IMG/VR virus record: IMGVR_UViG_3300022200_007389
Span: 1 to 20,562 of that record
Length of the DNA: 20,562 nt
Direction: 5' to 3' (one strand)
Source of the DNA: a virus
The notes under the pieces: model-generated
Database searches by the model: none
What the model was told of the DNA's origin: nothing
Seen by the model: only the letters and a program-made list of their open reading frames with translations
Position numbers and translations under genes: made by a program
Shown: piece after piece, positions 3,803 through 14,908 of the stretch
Position numbering within the stretch: position 1 is the first letter of the stretch
Layout of the letters: each line of letters begins with the position of its first letter

Positions 3803-4111
3803 TTAGTTAAAAGGTATATCATCTTCAAAGTCTTCATCTTTCGCCGGTGCGGATTCTGATCCATTGCTTTTTGCCGGTGCATCGTCATCGTCAAAAATCG
3901 ACACCATCAAGTTATCGCGGATGTCTTTGCCGTTTTGACGGTTCATGATGTTTTGCAGCATCAAACAACCGGCCAGATTCACCGTCGGGTCAATCAACAC
4001 AAACTCGTTATCGTCTTTTTTGATGATTGATCCCAAACGCACATAGCGCCCCTTTTTCTCCCCGTCTCGGTTTGTGTATTCACCGGTTTTAATCACTAAG
4101 CGTTTAGCCAT
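3803..4111 (-). CDS. SSB-like single-stranded DNA-binding protein
   Basis: A 102-residue protein beginning MAKRLVIKTGEYTNRDGEKK. The first 75 residues look beta-rich, with an IKTGEY..RDGEKKGRYVRLG pattern seen in small phage ssDNA-binding-like proteins. A flexible Ala/Ser/Lys segment follows, then an acidic tail EDFEDDIPFN. This resembles the DDDIPF tail with which bacterial SSB recruits partner proteins, with an added Asn at the end. It is therefore probably a ssDNA-binding protein that recruits replication or recombination factors. ATG at 4111 has AAGG at a suitable distance; an upstream TTG at 4138 would add nine residues and is unlikely. It overlaps the previous gene by 8 nt. Confidence 0.68.
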   Translation of the reverse strand: MAKRLVIKTGEYTNRDGEKKGRYVRLGSIIKKDDNEFVLIDPTVNLAGCLMLQNIMNRQNGKDIRDNLMVSIFDDDDAPAKSNGSESAPAKDEDFEDDIPFN

Positions 4112-4662: not shown

Positions 4663-5185
4663 AAATGGCCGCCCATAAATCACGTCTAGGCACAAACACA
4701 CATTCGGAATGGTAATTATTTCCATTGCTTCTATATGTTTTTTGTTTTGCCTTCTTATAAACTTTTGACCATGCTGTAACTCGTTTAGAAAAAGCAGCCA
4801 ACAACATAGGAAACGGAATCAACATCCAACGCCCTGTCTCTTTCCAAAACCATAAAATATAATCTGTCCTTTTTTCCTGGTTTAACGTCCAACCTTTGAT
4901 ATTTTTTTCGACAACCGAAAATGTTTCTAAGGCAATATCATCAAATCCTTTGAGCGCCCAATCTTCTTCTCTAACTTTACAATCAATACCTAAATGCTTT
5001 CCGCTTTCATGCTCAACCCAAAAGTCAACGCCATTCCGATCATTCTTCTCGTGTGATGGGTTTACATTAAGCGCACCTGGAATCTGATCTAACAGTATTT
5101 TTTCAATGGATATGTTTTCAGAAGCACCTTGACTCATTGCCAGTCTTTCATCAAATTCATAAACAATCGGCTTACTTAATTCCAT
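4622..5185 (-). CDS. PD-(D/E)XK nuclease-like protein
   Basis: A 187-residue protein starting MELSKPIVYEFDERLAMSQG. The centre, NDRNGVDFWVEHESGKHLGI followed by DCKVRE (residues 48-73), fits a PD-(D/E)XK active site: Asp54 on one strand, then Asp68-x-Lys70 on the next. An N-terminal helix carries Glu residues, and a later WFWKETGRWMLIPFP segment (about 112-126) looks like the following core strands. Family knowledge links this fold to restriction, repair and junction nucleases, so endonuclease activity is inferred. The start has GGGGGG 3-4 nt upstream and overlaps the end of the adenine methyltransferase gene by 14 nt; a longer in-frame start would lie well inside that gene. It may be the cutting partner of the methyltransferase, or a DNA-processing nuclease. 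Confidence 0.62.
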   Translation of the reverse strand: MELSKPIVYEFDERLAMSQGASENISIEKILLDQIPGALNVNPSHEKNDRNGVDFWVEHESGKHLGIDCKVREEDWALKGFDDIALETFSVVEKNIKGWTLNQEKRTDYILWFWKETGRWMLIPFPMLLAAFSKRVTAWSKVYKKAKQKTYRSNGNNYHSECVFVPRRDLWAAIYEDFSGNPNRSYK

Positions 5186-6314
5186 TTTCCCCCCACGAAG
5201 ACCAGTCTTTTCTATCTCCCCTTGAAAACAGTTCCAAATATGGCCCATGACTACAAGACTCGACCAAATCATAAAATTCAACCGGTTTTGAGCTATGGCC
5301 ATTTTCACCTCTCGGTGCATCAAATCGAGTTCCAACATCTTTCCTTTTCAGTTCCAATGATCCTTTAACACCAAACAAAACATGCTCAGTTTGCCCCCTA
5401 AAATAATTTCCCATACCAAATGATGGTTTGACCCAAGTTAAACATGTGATATATCTAAAGCCCCATTTTTCTAATAGCTGAAAACCTTTTGGCAATGACC
5501 TATTTGTGATCCATAAATAGATATGCGAATCATCCATTGCCAAATCGTTAACCGGTAAATCCATCAATTTATGAATAGACAATGTTTGATAATCCGGTTT
5601 TGCCCGTCCTAATTGATCGTTATCCCCTTCATCTCCCCAATCCCATGGCGGGTCAATGACAATCGTTGGAAACTTTGCATCTATCTTTAAAATGTCAGAA
5701 TCAGCACGAGACTCAATTTTTTCCCGGTTTTCTTGCCTTTTTTGCTCACGCTGTTCTTCTTTCATTTCGCGTTTTGCTTGTGGCAATGTTTTTTCACCAT
5801 CTTTGATTTGCTTAAAAACTTCAGGTCTTTCTTGCTGAATTTTCTTTGCATCGGACACATACTTGCCACCAACTCCAACGGCTTTGGCGGCTTGGTCGCG
5901 TGACTTGGTTTGTTCTTTCGGTTCTGGTGTGGATTCACTTGGTGGCAAAATTGCCACAATGTTATCTTTCTTCAAATCAGTCCGCTCACCCTGCCTTTTC
6001 TTCGCCTCGGCTTCAAACAACGGCAACAATTCAACAGCGGCGGTGGCTTTTTGGCTTTGGCTCAAATGGCGACGTTTTAAATTCAAAGAAACAACAAAAT
6101 TTAATGGATCATCCCCTTCATAATCTTTAGTGACAGGATCAACACCCACATCTTGACAGGCTTTAAACCTATTTCTTCCGTCTAAGATTTTTCCTTCATA
6201 GAGACAGATCGGCTCTAGCAATCCGTTTTGTTTAATGTCTTGTTTTAATGCAACAAACTCATCAGGAGACATTAACGGAAAAATATCAGCGTATGGATGT
6301 GTTTTATATTGCAT
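5172..6314 (-). CDS. ParB-like / MT-A70 adenine N6-methyltransferase fusion
   Basis: A 380-residue two-domain protein. Residues 1-90 form a ParB/sulfiredoxin-like domain (PLMSPDEFVALKQDIKQNGL, then GKILDGRNRFKAC). The middle (about 100-205) is a charged linker with a KorB-like helix-turn-helix region (DQAAKAVGVGGKYVSDAKKI). Residues 215-370 are an MT-A70 type methyltransferase with catalytic DPPW at 221-224, IYLWITN near 266-272 and a late SSKPVEFYDLVE motif. It should methylate adenine N6 in DNA using S-adenosylmethionine. Similar fusions are common in phages, where they can protect DNA against host restriction or alter regulation. The start is preceded by AGGA at 7 nt, and the gene is overlapped by a 21-codon upstream frame. 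Confidence 0.9.
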   Translation of the reverse strand: MQYKTHPYADIFPLMSPDEFVALKQDIKQNGLLEPICLYEGKILDGRNRFKACQDVGVDPVTKDYEGDDPLNFVVSLNLKRRHLSQSQKATAAVELLPLFEAEAKKRQGERTDLKKDNIVAILPPSESTPEPKEQTKSRDQAAKAVGVGGKYVSDAKKIQQERPEVFKQIKDGEKTLPQAKREMKEEQREQKRQENREKIESRADSDILKIDAKFPTIVIDPPWDWGDEGDNDQLGRAKPDYQTLSIHKLMDLPVNDLAMDDSHIYLWITNRSLPKGFQLLEKWGFRYITCLTWVKPSFGMGNYFRGQTEHVLFGVKGSLELKRKDVGTRFDAPRGENGHSSKPVEFYDLVESCSHGPYLELFSRGDRKDWSSWGENGIK

Positions 6315-8883: not shown

Positions 8884-8912
8884 TTGACAAGTTATAAAAT
8901 TTATTTTAATAT
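8884..8912 (+). promoter_or_regulatory. Rightward early promoter
   Basis: A perfect -35 TTGACA (8884-8889), 17-bp spacer and -10 TAATAT (8907-8912). Transcription would begin near 8919, so the first GCANN array lies in the untranslated leader of the rightward operon. This is the clearest promoter in the window. Confidence 0.72.
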
Positions 8913-8933: not shown

Positions 8934-9051
8934 GCAGGGAAATGCAGGGCAGTGCATCGCACTGCATCGCAGGGCAATGCAAAGCATAGCAACTCAAAGC
9001 AACGCGGATTACCGATTCGCTGAGTCGGTAATACCGAGTCGGTTTTGACTC
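8934..9051 (+). repeat. GCANN array plus two-hairpin core, copy 1
   Basis: An interrupted 5-nt array (GCAGG, GAAAT, then ten GCANN units from 8944 to 8993) ends in TCAAA-GCAAC-GCG (8994-9006). Hairpin 1 follows: arms ATTACCGATTC (9008-9018) and GAGTCGGTAAT (9022-9032), loop GCT, 11 bp with one G-T pair. Hairpin 2: GAGTC (9036-9040) and GACTC (9047-9051). The ribosome site TGGAG of the next gene comes 2 nt later. There is no second array in this copy. It lies in the leader of the rightward transcript. Confidence 0.8.
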
Positions 9052-9064
9052 ATGGAGATATAGC

Positions 9065-11554: not shown

Positions 11555-11773
11555 GCAGCACATAGCATTGCAGTGCACTGCATAGCAAAGCAGGGCAAGG
11601 CAAATCAAAGCAACGCGGGCAGCCGATTCACTGAGTCGGTTGTACCGAGTCGCTTTTGACTCAAGGGAAGCAGTGCAGGGCATCGCAATGCATAGCAGTG
11701 CAGCGCAGCGCAATGCAAAGCATCGCAGGGCATTTGAAAGCAACGCGACCTGAGCAAGTCACTAAAAGGCTCA
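11555..11773 (+). repeat. GCANN array plus hairpin core, copy 2
   Basis: This fills most of the 289-nt gap after recT. Array A is GCAGC, ACATA, then eight GCANN (11565-11604), TCAAA-GCAAC-GCG. Hairpin 1 has arms CAGCCGATTC (11620-11629) and GAGTCGGTTG (11633-11642), loop ACT. Hairpin 2 is GAGTC (11647-11651) and GACTC (11658-11662). Array B has thirteen GCANN (11670-11734), TGAAA-GCAAC-GCG. A third hairpin has TGAGC (11751-11755) and GCTCA (11769-11773). GGAG and the next ATG follow at 11787 and 11798. Because GCANN contains almost no stop codons in any frame, long false reading frames cross it on both strands. Confidence 0.85.
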
Positions 11774-11797
11774 TTCACTTAAAATCGGAGAAAAAAA

Positions 11798-12391
11798 ATG
11801 ATAAGAAACGCAACCATCAAAGTCATCGGCTTTCAGCCTTTATTGCAATCCAACCCAACCACAGTAGATCGCTTTCATCCGATCTCTAAACGCATGGCCG
11901 CGATTAACGCCAGAAAAACCCGCCGCACCGATGAAGATTATTTGGAATTAAGAGAGCTGGAAATCAAAGCAAAAACCTATTTTGATGAAAAACTTGGCGT
12001 CTATGTCCCAGGCAGTTGGTTAATTGAAAGCTTTGGCAAACATTCGCACGCAATGGCAAAAATTCCTAAAGCGGAAATACGCGGCTCCATGTTTGTGGCC
12101 GATAAATTAAAACTGGTTTACAGCGGTATGGATCGGGTCAAAACCTTAGAAGATATTGTCAAAAATGATGAGTTTCATCATTTGATGAATGTCAAACAAG
12201 GTCAAGTCAGAGTCATAAAAGCCTGTCCCATCTTTAACGATTGGAGCTTTGAAACCGAATTAGAATTTGATGACAAAATTGTGGATAAAACCGATATTGA
12301 TCGAATTTTTAAACATGCGGCTCGCTTAGGCGGTTATGGTGATTTTAGACCGACCTTTGGCCGCGCCAATGTGGAGATTACGCATGGTTGA
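11798..12391 (+). CDS. Conserved-looking phage protein, function unknown
   Basis: A 197-residue protein, starting 7 nt after GGAG. The N-terminus, ATIKVIGFQPLLQSNPTTVD, looks like a beta strand followed by a 'plL...' turn. A middle segment, FDEKLGVYVPGSWLIESFGK, is followed by basic helices. The end, DRIFKHAARLGGYGDFRPTF then GRANVEI, carries a G.GDfRP.fGr.. pattern that I associate with a widespread phage protein family of unknown function, often written G(I/L)GDWRPKYGRF. The fold recalls ferredoxin-like RAMP proteins but that is a guess. It overlaps the next gene by 8 nt, and the pair is bracketed by copies 2 and 3 of the repeat element. Confidence 0.72.
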   Translation: MIRNATIKVIGFQPLLQSNPTTVDRFHPISKRMAAINARKTRRTDEDYLELRELEIKAKTYFDEKLGVYVPGSWLIESFGKHSHAMAKIPKAEIRGSMFVADKLKLVYSGMDRVKTLEDIVKNDEFHHLMNVKQGQVRVIKACPIFNDWSFETELEFDDKIVDKTDIDRIFKHAARLGGYGDFRPTFGRANVEITHG

Positions 12392-12827
12392 TTTATATGA
12401 AATATTGAATGAAAAAGGGCTGATTTATTATGGATCACATTTGTCTGGCGATCTAATCCGGCACATTGCCGGCATTGAAGAAATTAAAGACGATGAGTTA
12501 AAAACAATGGATGTAAAAACCATCAGAGAGCGCATTAACACACAAGAATTAGCCGAATTAAATGTCACGGGTGCATTAAGAATGGATTTATTAGAACGTG
12601 GCATGTATTTAAAAAAAACCGGTCTCGATTACCGGATTTTATTACCGTCAGAAAATGCCGATCAAGTGAAAAGTTATCTGAAATCATCAGACAAAAAGTT
12701 AAAACGAGCGGCGTTATTACAAGCCAATACACCGAAACAAATCGGCAATAAACCCAATCAAGAAATCACCCGTTTGCAGATGAAAATGCAATCAAATCAG
12801 GAATGGGCGGATCGAATAAGTTTGTAG
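12384..12827 (+). CDS. Hypothetical phage protein, partner of 11798-12391
   Basis: A 147-residue protein starting MVDLYEILNEKGLIYYGSHL. ATG 12384 lies within the last codons of the preceding gene; an upstream in-frame start at 12336 lies inside that gene and is not needed. Residues 60-125 (ALRMDLLERGMYLKKTGLDY, RILLPSENADQVKSYLKSSD, KKLKRAALLQANTP) form a charged region with an 'R.LlPSEN..Qv..Y...sdkKlkRA..L' pattern familiar from phage early proteins. The end is basic and Gln-rich. Function unknown; a DNA- or RNA-binding role fits the charge. The repeat element begins 13 nt after its stop. Confidence 0.7.
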   Translation: MVDLYEILNEKGLIYYGSHLSGDLIRHIAGIEEIKDDELKTMDVKTIRERINTQELAELNVTGALRMDLLERGMYLKKTGLDYRILLPSENADQVKSYLKSSDKKLKRAALLQANTPKQIGNKPNQEITRLQMKMQSNQEWADRISL

Positions 12828-12839
12828 TTATTTTTGAAG

Positions 12840-13104
12840 GCAATGCAGTGCATCGCAAGGCATTGCATCGCATCGCAAAGCATCGCAAGGCATTGCATCG
12901 CAAAGCATCGCAACTCAAAGCAACGCGGGCAGCCGATTCACTGAGTCGGTTGTACCGAGTTTTTTTGAAACTCAAGGGAAGCAAGGCATCGCATCGCATT
13001 GCACCGCAGCGCATCGCATCGCATGGCAGTGCAAAGCATCGCATTGCAAAGCATCGCAGAGCATTTGAAAGCAACGCGACCTGAGCAAGTCACTAAAAGG
13101 CTCA
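12840..13104 (+). repeat. GCANN array plus hairpin core, copy 3
   Basis: The longest and most regular copy. Array A has fifteen GCANN (12840-12914), TCAAA-GCAAC-GCG. Hairpin 1 has arms CAGCCGATTC (12930-12939) and GAGTCGGTTG (12943-12952). Hairpin 2 is GAGTTT (12957-12962) and AAACTC (12968-12973), where copies 1 and 2 have GAGTC/GACTC, a paired change. Array B has seventeen GCANN (12981-13065), TGAAA-GCAAC-GCG. The third hairpin is TGAGC (13082-13086) and GCTCA (13100-13104). AGGAG and the next ATG follow at 13117 and 13127. The core and tail are almost identical to copy 2, while the arrays differ in length and in the variable bases. Confidence 0.87.
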
Positions 13105-13126
13105 TCACACTTTCACAGGAGAAAAA

Positions 13127-13408
13127 ATGGCAACAGAACAACAATTTTACGCAGCCGCACCGGGCAACTTAAAACAAAAACTGGATGAAAAAAACCAGCT
13201 AAGCGATATGAATGAATTGTTGATTGAACAGATGCAGCTTTTAGCATCGATCGATACCGATGAAGTGACGCCAGAACAACTGACCAAAGCCACACAACGG
13301 TCAGCCGCATTAGCCGCGTTAGCCGATAAGGTCATCAGTTCTGAACGATTGCTGTTTGATCAGAAAAAAGAATTTTCTATTGTTTCAACCCAGAAGTTAA
13401 TCGGATGA
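13127..13408 (+). CDS. Hypothetical helical protein (93 aa)
   Basis: A 93-residue protein starting MATEQQFYAAAPGNLKQKLD, with AGGAG 5 nt before its ATG. The sequence is helical with Gln, Leu and Glu rich stretches (MNELLIEQMQLLASIDTDEV, then SAALAALADKVISSERLLFD). Small proteins of this look, with a final '..vIssekl.ldqkk' helix, are common before HNH or terminase genes in phages and may be scaffolds or DNA-binding adaptors, but I cannot name the family. Its end overlaps the start of the first HNH gene (ATGA). Confidence 0.7.
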   Translation: MATEQQFYAAAPGNLKQKLDEKNQLSDMNELLIEQMQLLASIDTDEVTPEQLTKATQRSAALAALADKVISSERLLFDQKKEFSIVSTQKLIG

Positions 13409-14169
13409 CCTTTAAATATACGACAGAAATGATTGATTGGTTGCGATCGCATCAGCACTTAAAACGTCCGGATCAGCAAAAGCAATTTAACGCCACGTTT
13501 GGCTTAAACAAAAGCTTAGGTGCAATCAACAACATCTGTCGTCATCACGGGTTTAAATCTGTGATTCATCCTAAAAACTGGATAACAGATGAGCAACTGG
13601 CGTTTTTAGAAACCATTCAGCATTTAGAACGCAAAGATCAAGCGGTGAAGTTTAATGAAAAGTTTGGCACTCAAGTCACTTCGAAACAGCTAACCAATCA
13701 TTGCTATCACAGAAAAATTAAGTCTGAATTTCAGCGTGAAGATGTGTTTAAAAAAGGCCATAAAACTTGGAACAAAGGCAAAAAAGGCATTCATTTATCA
13801 CCCGATTCGGAATTTAAAAAAGGCTGTTTGCCACCGTCTTATAAACCCATTGGTTCGGTTACATTTGACGGCCAGGCTAAGCAATGGTTGATTAAAGTTG
13901 AAGACCCCAATGTCTGGCGGAAAGCCTCTCACATCATCTGGGAAAAAGCACACGGCAAAAAAATGGAAGAAGGCGGTTTGATTTTATTTTTAGACGGCAA
14001 TAAAAATAATCTGCATTTTAGCAATCTAAAGTACGTTAATCGTGCTGTTTTTGCCGGCCTCATGCGAAAAAAGGCCCATCATGATGCACCTGAACACAAA
14101 GAAATTTTGATTCATGTCTTGCAACTGCAACAGCAAATTAAAGAGTTAACCGATGAAATACCGTCCTGA
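13405..14169 (+). CDS. HNH-type endonuclease with two N-terminal DNA-binding repeats (first of tandem pair)
   Basis: A 254-residue protein. Two repeats of about 45 residues at 6-50 (IDWLRSHQHLKRPDQQKQFN) and 56-105 (LAFLETIQHLERKDQAVKFN) each end in a Cys/His and a 'glKs' motif and look like small helical DNA-binding units. A linker, FKKGHKTWNKGKKG, leads to the HNH part: PIGS, a WLIKVEDPNVWRKASHIIWE strand-helix and LILFLDGNKNNLHFSNL. The DGNKNN...NL core matches the phage HNH family in which the first His of the classical motif is not evident. It probably cuts or nicks DNA; homing and packaging roles are both known in the family. It overlaps the paralogue by 17 nt. Confidence 0.85.
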   Translation: MTFKYTTEMIDWLRSHQHLKRPDQQKQFNATFGLNKSLGAINNICRHHGFKSVIHPKNWITDEQLAFLETIQHLERKDQAVKFNEKFGTQVTSKQLTNHCYHRKIKSEFQREDVFKKGHKTWNKGKKGIHLSPDSEFKKGCLPPSYKPIGSVTFDGQAKQWLIKVEDPNVWRKASHIIWEKAHGKKMEEGGLILFLDGNKNNLHFSNLKYVNRAVFAGLMRKKAHHDAPEHKEILIHVLQLQQQIKELTDEIPS

Positions 14170-14908
14170 ACACGATCAATTTTTAAAACAACATCAGCAC
14201 ATAAGTCGTGCAGAGTTAGCGGCAATGTTCAATAAAAAATTCGGCACAAACATCAGTGTCAATGCGATGGGTAAACGTTGTTTGTCGTTAGGGTTATCGT
14301 CAACTTATACCTGGTATTTCAAACTGACCGACGAACACATTCAATACCTGCGCGATCATCAGCACTTAACTCGTCCAGTCTTGCTGGCGCAGTTTAACGC
14401 AAAGTTTTCGGCAAACTTAACGATGGACGGGCTAAGTACCCGTTGCTATCGCTTAAAAATCAAATCAACTGCGCAGAAAAAACCGAACAGCGGTTGTTTT
14501 AATAAAGGCTTAACCCCGTGGAACAAAGGTAAAAAAGGATTGAGAGTTTCACCCGCCAGCGAATTTAAAAAAGGCAATTTGCCAGCGCAAACCAAACCCG
14601 TCGGCTCCATGCGCCGCACGTTGCGAGATAACATCTTGCAAATCAAAATCGCCAATCCAAAGGTCTGGCGTGATGTGCATAAACTGATCTATGAAGAACA
14701 CCACGGCCCGATCCCCAAAGGCCATGTGATCATCTTCTTAGACGGCGACAAGAATAACTTTGACGTGCAAAACTTAGCCTGCATCAGTCGTGGCGTGCAT
14801 TCGCAAATGTGCAGGGACGGTGTGTATAAGCTGAAAAATGTTGATCTGAAAGAGACGCACATCAACGTCTATAAACTGAAAGAAAAAATTAGGACGCTGG
14901 CATCATGA
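14153..14908 (+). CDS. HNH-type endonuclease, tandem paralogue
   Basis: A 251-residue protein with the same build as the preceding gene. Two N-terminal repeats (HDQFLKQHQHISRAELAAMF at 7-26; HIQYLRDHQHLTRPVLLAQF at 61-80) are followed by FNKGLTPWNKGKKG, then PVGSMRRT, a VWRDVHKLIYEEHHGPIPKG segment and HVIIFLDGDKNNFDVQNLAC. This copy keeps the HHGPIPKGH and DGDKNN pattern better than the first, so it may be the active one. Clear but not close similarity indicates an old duplication. The start lies inside the end of the first gene, and its stop overlaps the next gene (ATGA). Confidence 0.85.
   Translation: MKYRPEHDQFLKQHQHISRAELAAMFNKKFGTNISVNAMGKRCLSLGLSSTYTWYFKLTDEHIQYLRDHQHLTRPVLLAQFNAKFSANLTMDGLSTRCYRLKIKSTAQKKPNSGCFNKGLTPWNKGKKGLRVSPASEFKKGNLPAQTKPVGSMRRTLRDNILQIKIANPKVWRDVHKLIYEEHHGPIPKGHVIIFLDGDKNNFDVQNLACISRGVHSQMCRDGVYKLKNVDLKETHINVYKLKEKIRTLAS

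Follow-up and report, generated by a model that had tools for sequence, protein, structure and literature searches.

The five degenerate pentanucleotide arrays of this viral DNA are very probably vrRNA guide genes of a VIPR system that belongs to the phage or prophage and would work as in the published systems. The window, i.e., the whole stretch of DNA that was analysed, is a virus record of 20,562 bases. VIPR (Viral Interference Programmable Repeat), described in a preprint of 2026, is a relative of CRISPR and its proposed ancestor (PMC13142463). It pairs the Vipr protein with vrRNAs, which consist of alternating GGY/NN pentanucleotides and a structured tail; successive NN pair with double-stranded DNA with one skipped base between them, and the complex represses transcription (PMC13142463). 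Natural VIPR guides point at satellites and prophages, and the vrRNA tail of the SUSP1 clade contains a pseudoknot (PMC13142463). In the window and related loci, we found the arrays on a single strand, hypervariable NN, a covarying tail structure, a protein homologous to Vipr with a matching predicted fold, and a linkage of the arrays to its gene. The assignment to VIPR rests on the protein, the guide tract, the tail, and the accessory gene, and a mode of working like that of the GGY systems would hold by analogy.

All five (GCANN)n arrays are located on the plus strand: A1 (8934–9003), A2a (11555–11606), A2b (11670–11734), A3a (12840–12914), and A3b (12981–13065). The uninterrupted runs given in a preliminary description of this DNA were reproduced exactly by a strict-run count, namely 10 GCA units at 8944–8991, 8 at 11565–11602, 13 at 11670–11732, 15 at 12840–12912, and 17 at 12981–13063. 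The variable dinucleotides are GG GT TC CT TC GG AT AA TA, then AC, in A1; TT GT CT TA AA GG AG in A2a; and GT GG TC AT TA GT GC GC AT AA TC GG TT in A2b. Six-unit GCANN matches number 38 on the plus strand and 0 on the minus strand, with 0 in dinucleotide shuffles (n = 100), and the reversed-pattern control gave 0 matches. The common in-phase terminus T(C/G)AAA-GCAAC-GCG, also noted earlier, was found in five of five arrays. Each array is followed on its 3′ side by a constant tail, which is structured in three of the five. A Cas7-like gene (11798–12391) is bracketed by two array pairs, A2a/A2b and A3a/A3b. A promoter-like site, TTGACA-17-TAATAT, lies directly upstream of A1 (8884–8912, plus strand) and is a consensus match only (10/12). 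A coding role of the arrays was considered and rejected: TA in the NN position creates TAG, a stop in one reading phase, and is not strongly avoided (0.039 vs. 0.045).

The GCA triplet is retained while the NN dinucleotides turn over. In 1154 units from related loci, the column entropies of the triplet are 0.29 (G), 0.39 (C), and 0.22 (A) bits, and those of the two variable positions are 1.89 and 1.98 bits; this contrast is partly by construction, as the units were chosen by triplet. When the paralogous arrays A2b and A3b are right-aligned, GCA is changed at 0 of 39 positions and NN at 11 of 26 (p = 9e-6), with 1 change in 41 tail positions. Between the phages L181 and L182, which are 91% identical, the upstream arrays have 25 and 13 units, respectively, and the NN are largely different, while the flanks are conserved. 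The unequal change of GCA and NN was a check proposed in the preliminary description, and its claim of selection on the triplet rather than neutral slippage proved largely right. In the phages L182 and L183 (99% identical), the upstream arrays near 3870–3950 share the 3′ units and differ in the 5′ units, which suggests a polarised renewal of guides. As a separate observation, in the related contigs L082 (1–340) and L085 (1–330), one L082 array resembles a fusion of two L085 arrays (CT-AA-AG-TA-CC-CG + GC-AA-GA), possibly caused by recombination between guide cassettes.

The structured tails contain two hairpins and a pseudoknot. They are located on the plus strand at 8996–9052 (A1), 11607–11663 (A2a), and 12917–12973 (A3a), with z values of −4.6, −3.9, and −4.5, respectively. 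A covariance model (R1) scored them at 47.6 bits (E = 2e-12), 54.2 bits, and 53.4 bits, which are matches by construction, as these three are among the 27 tails used to construct it. In total, the model has 108 matches, 79 of them distinct, from 44 sources, with three in the window. A compensatory change can be noted in hairpin 2, where GAGTTT/AAACTC of A3a corresponds to GAGTC/GACTC of A2a. Helix 1 of the tail is paired in 94.6% of cases, and a one-column slide reduces this value to 44–45%; double-change cells in both helices number 254 vs. 80 expected from shuffles (0/500), these helix figures being favoured by an alignment fitted to the tested structure. The pseudoknot pairing, formed by the last in-phase unit AAAGC and the hairpin 2 loop GCUUU, lay outside the covariance model. 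Its cells are 91.7% paired, and it shows 43 double changes vs. 12 in shuffles (0/500), for example, AAAUA with UAUUU. Thus, the shared end motif in A1, A2a, and A3a is explained by its being the 5′ side of the tail pseudoknot.

The pseudoknot-type tail was not seen at A2b and A3b. The alternative tail B of A2b (11735–11775, plus strand), directly upstream of vipr, has no stable fold (z = +0.8), and the tail B of A3b (13066–13106, plus strand), upstream of the ORF at 13127, has no stable predicted fold; the two are identical at 40 of 41 positions. Tail-less arrays ahead of gene starts are also present in the loci L172, L174, L181, and L194. No informative match came from Rfam, PADLOC, or NCBIfam.

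The vipr gene (11798–12391, plus strand) encodes a Cas7-like RAMP protein of 197 aa, assigned by its PDB 36pp match and predicted fold. Its product is homologous over its length to PDB chain 36pp_D, the "SUSP1 Vipr protein" (E = 2e-26); the identity of the two is 32%, and a profile comparison with hhalign gave a probability of 99.8. The protein belongs to phrog_4652, a family of unknown function, and a Pfam scan of it revealed no match. An AlphaFold2 model of Vipr constructed from 35 relatives has a mean pLDDT of 92, and the PDB structures closest to it in fold are RAMPs of the Csm3/Cas7 type, from type III and type VII CRISPR complexes, together with Cas7-11 (Z reaching 11.8). The Vipr protein of the window is therefore predicted to fold like Cas7/Csm3 RAMPs. 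The next gene (12384–12827, plus strand) encodes a vap-like accessory protein of 147 aa, homologues of which adjoin vipr in the close Vipr loci examined. Its match with the product of the SUSP1 gene following vipr is weak (hhalign probability 84.5, E = 7e-6). Among the rightward genes near the arrays are exonuclease VIII-like and RecT-like genes and two HNH endonuclease genes. The latter, at 13405–14169 and 14153–14908, downstream of the VIPR operon, are tandem paralogues (phrog_1891). On the minus strand, at 5172–6314, a 380-aa protein is encoded whose N-terminal part matches ParB-type proteins and whose C-terminal part matches phage DNA methylase proteins.

Linkage of the arrays to vipr was analysed in viral loci. 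A single-sequence search of viral contigs with the Vipr protein of the window found nothing, and a genome search for Vipr loci returned only two MAG loci. An alignment-query search by the Vipr protein alone gave 40 viral loci; since the query alignment was built from loci first found by their arrays, this sample is array-blind in the search step only. Strict GCANN arrays are present in 28 of the 40 loci, 75 arrays in total, and all 75 are on the strand of vipr, spanning about −650 to +1710 nt from its start. In-phase arrays on the sense strand of other phages, which the preliminary description had proposed to look for, were thus found, and near vipr. Most of the other 12 loci contain imperfect or degenerate arrays, and one of them, L195, has GAANN. 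With a stricter definition (free-NN arrays with any triplet), arrays were detected in 27 of the 40 Vipr loci vs. 0 of 208 control viral loci comprising 1.85 Mb (p = 1e-26). As a method control, the same scan of SUSP1 revealed one GGT array upstream and three downstream, matching the published description (PMC13142463).

If the system works as published, transcription of each array from the plus strand would yield an RNA with a GCA-NN pentanucleotide tract, followed in three cases by a folded tail. Vipr would form a polymer along this tract, with one subunit for every pentanucleotide, and each subunit would grip one GCA as its scaffold. The two exposed bases of each unit would pair with DNA, so that a 15-unit array would address about 30 target bases with a 3-base pitch (NNx). 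Binding of the RNP would repress or otherwise disable competing phages, prophages, or satellites, with the help of the vap-like protein. We infer from the published work on SUSP1 and P. fulva that an RNP is formed and that it targets DNA with a skip of 1 nt, and we take the biological role from the same work.

Under the 1-nt skip (x = any base), the predicted protospacers are GGxGTxTCxCTxTCxGGxATxAAxTAxAC for A1, TTxGTxCTxTAxAAxGGxAGxAA for A2a, GTxGGxTCxATxTAxGTxGCxGCxATxAAxTCxGGxTT for A2b, ATxGTxTCxAGxTTxTCxTCxAAxTCxAGxTTxTCxAAxTCxAC for A3a, and AGxTCxTCxTTxCCxGCxTCxTCxTGxGTxAAxTCxTTxAAxTCxGAxTT for A3b. Neither the IMG/VR scans for A3b, A2b, A1, and A3a nor the scans for A3a and A3b in 369 genomes from the class to which one Gammaproteobacteria MAG belongs revealed a significant site. 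The highest-scoring candidate is a site of A3a in L261/L256, which matches at 25 of 30 positions, is in frame, and places the skipped base at the wobble position. This site was rejected as a real target, being compatible with chance (expected about once per seven such searches). A reverse-strand reading of A3b as a helix–turn–helix (HTH) motif (LTQEEAG) was also rejected, as 0 of 36 seed hits extended beyond chance. A comparison of 106 guides with the DNA of the collected loci, allowing skips of 0–3, revealed no excess of matches. Separately, if a skip of 2 nt is allowed, the guide array at L167:3633 agrees in 19 of 20 NN letters with a site at L167:1786 (plus strand) of the same contig, which is borderline given the number of tests. 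The codon-phase coherence of NN within loci is best for positions 1–2 (z = 2.6, 6/1000 shuffles), compared with 2.1 and 0.05 for the other phases; this preference is weakly suggestive and leans towards the wobble skip described in the published work. Because no natural target could be shown, the reading of DNA and the anti-phage use are only inferred.

Several observations speak against the VIPR reading: the triplet is GCA and not GGY, no significant 1-nt-skip target was found, the codon-phase preference is weak, and A2b and A3b lack a stable tail. In a different reading of the same RNP, Vipr of the GCA clade would bind the arrays, but the NN would guide it to RNA targets, the skip would be other than 1, or the RNP would serve as a decoy or autoregulator of its own operon. 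The failure of the 1-nt rule to give a DNA target points in this direction, as do the arrays without a stable tail directly before gene starts, with A2b directly before vipr. On the other hand, double-stranded DNA read with one base skipped is what the characterised relatives recognise (PMC13142463), and the NN fit codon positions 1–2 slightly better; we consider this reading unlikely.

The remaining explanations would dispense with guides. The preliminary description had compared the arrays with the targets of TRAP, and a TRAP-like ring or another regulator that reads GCA in an early mRNA leader, with NN as spacers only, would agree with the conserved triplet, the sense strand, and the leader-like positions. 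The window and the TRAP/trp leader have in common repeated triplets, 2-nt spacers, and, as predicted for the window, RNA bound by an oligomer. What stands of that idea is, most likely, an oligomer reading GCA in RNA, consistent with the sense-strand position of all arrays and with an adjoining protein of a type that polymerises on RNA. The kinship with TRAP does not: no TRAP family (MtrB) match was found in the ten operon proteins scanned, and the protein encoded beside the arrays is a homologue of Vipr, a RAMP of the Cas7 type with a different predicted fold. Nor do free spacers, since NN are guide sequence in the published VIPR system; here, they turn over between conserved flanks, as expected of guides, and cassettes of array and tail are duplicated and reshuffled in the fashion of crRNA units. 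This explanation is thus very improbable. Equally improbable are sites acting at the DNA level, either iterons or proteins arrayed along the helix with a contact every 5 bp, as at a replication origin. The regular 5-bp pitch fits such sites, but this alternative, also raised earlier, is disfavoured because of the strict strand bias (75 arrays on the strand of vipr, 0 on the other) and the covarying RNA tails with their compensatory changes and pseudoknot. Least credible of all are neutral microsatellites produced by slippage, although A3a contains an internal near-duplication of 25 nt and monotonous GCANN repeats occur in other contigs. The absence of free-NN arrays from the control loci and the unequal change of GCA and NN argue against them.

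Among known systems, the closest to the VIPR locus proposed here is VIPR type II of Escherichia phage SUSP1 and the P. fulva prophage. The common features are a homologous Vipr RAMP with an adjoining small vap-type gene, the location in phage DNA, several vrRNA cassettes of about 100 nt upstream and downstream, and a pentanucleotide tract with a constant triplet, hypervariable NN, and a pseudoknotted 3′ tail. The window differs from SUSP1 in the triplet (GCA instead of GGT), in the low identity of Vipr, in the weak vap match, and in having two arrays without a stable tail. Class 1 CRISPR-Cas systems (Cas7/Csm3 RAMP with crRNA) share with the window the predicted Cas7-like fold and the combination of a variable guide with a constant structured RNA handle. 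In contrast to them, the guides of the window contain constant triplets, there is one small RAMP, and no contiguous foreign spacers are present; in place of an array of identical repeats with cas genes, the window has (GCANN)n arrays, and Pfam and PHROG scans of the ten operon proteins revealed no cas gene. The Vipr clade of the window and the GCA code with free NN are shared by phiHSIC, by Vibrio phage 1.266.O, and by some 40 phages of IMG/VR (phrog_4652); the guides and the number and order of arrays are different, and none of their Vipr proteins exceeds about 55% identity to that of the window.

The published work allows GGY or "a related consensus" (fig. S17), and GCA is not mentioned in its main text (PMC13142463). 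Nearly all of the 95 Vipr homologues in the collected loci have an array nearby, with GCA, GGC, GGT, or GAA as the triplet. In a Vipr tree of 68 rows, the window is placed inside a clade of 41 rows (support 99/93), which comprises 37 GCA users, two GAA users, and two members without a called array. The other GCA users, L040, L046, L047, and L085, lie outside this clade, the first three among GGC users. Because of these and of GAA inside the clade, the triplet appears to have changed several times; two cautions apply, namely that a GCANN pattern was used to collect many of the loci and that L085 is not placed with certainty. The GAANN arrays of L195 (4634–4950; 13, 13, and 14 units) accompany a Vipr of the clade of the window and, judging from the sequences, represent a change of code word within it. 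A search for a Vipr residue tied to the triplet showed that signatures track the clade and not the word. Tentatively, and with less than even confidence, we propose a VIPR lineage with another code word, in which the triplet would have switched repeatedly (GGC/GGT, GCA, GAA) with co-evolution of Vipr and the RNA scaffold, and in which the GCA clade may read its target by a rule of its own.

VIPR has been put forward as a programmable DNA binder that is very small and needs no PAM (PMC13142463). This locus and its approximately 40 relatives, a branch of Vipr that uses a different code word (GCA, or GAA in the case of L195), allow one to ask how a RAMP recognises the scaffold triplet and whether different words are orthogonal; they also open the question of how guides are renewed, given the agreement at the 3′ end and the differences at the 5′ end in L182/L183. 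In addition, the GCA arrays of L190 are followed by an array of the GGC type (5670–5750), although a single Vipr was found in this contig.
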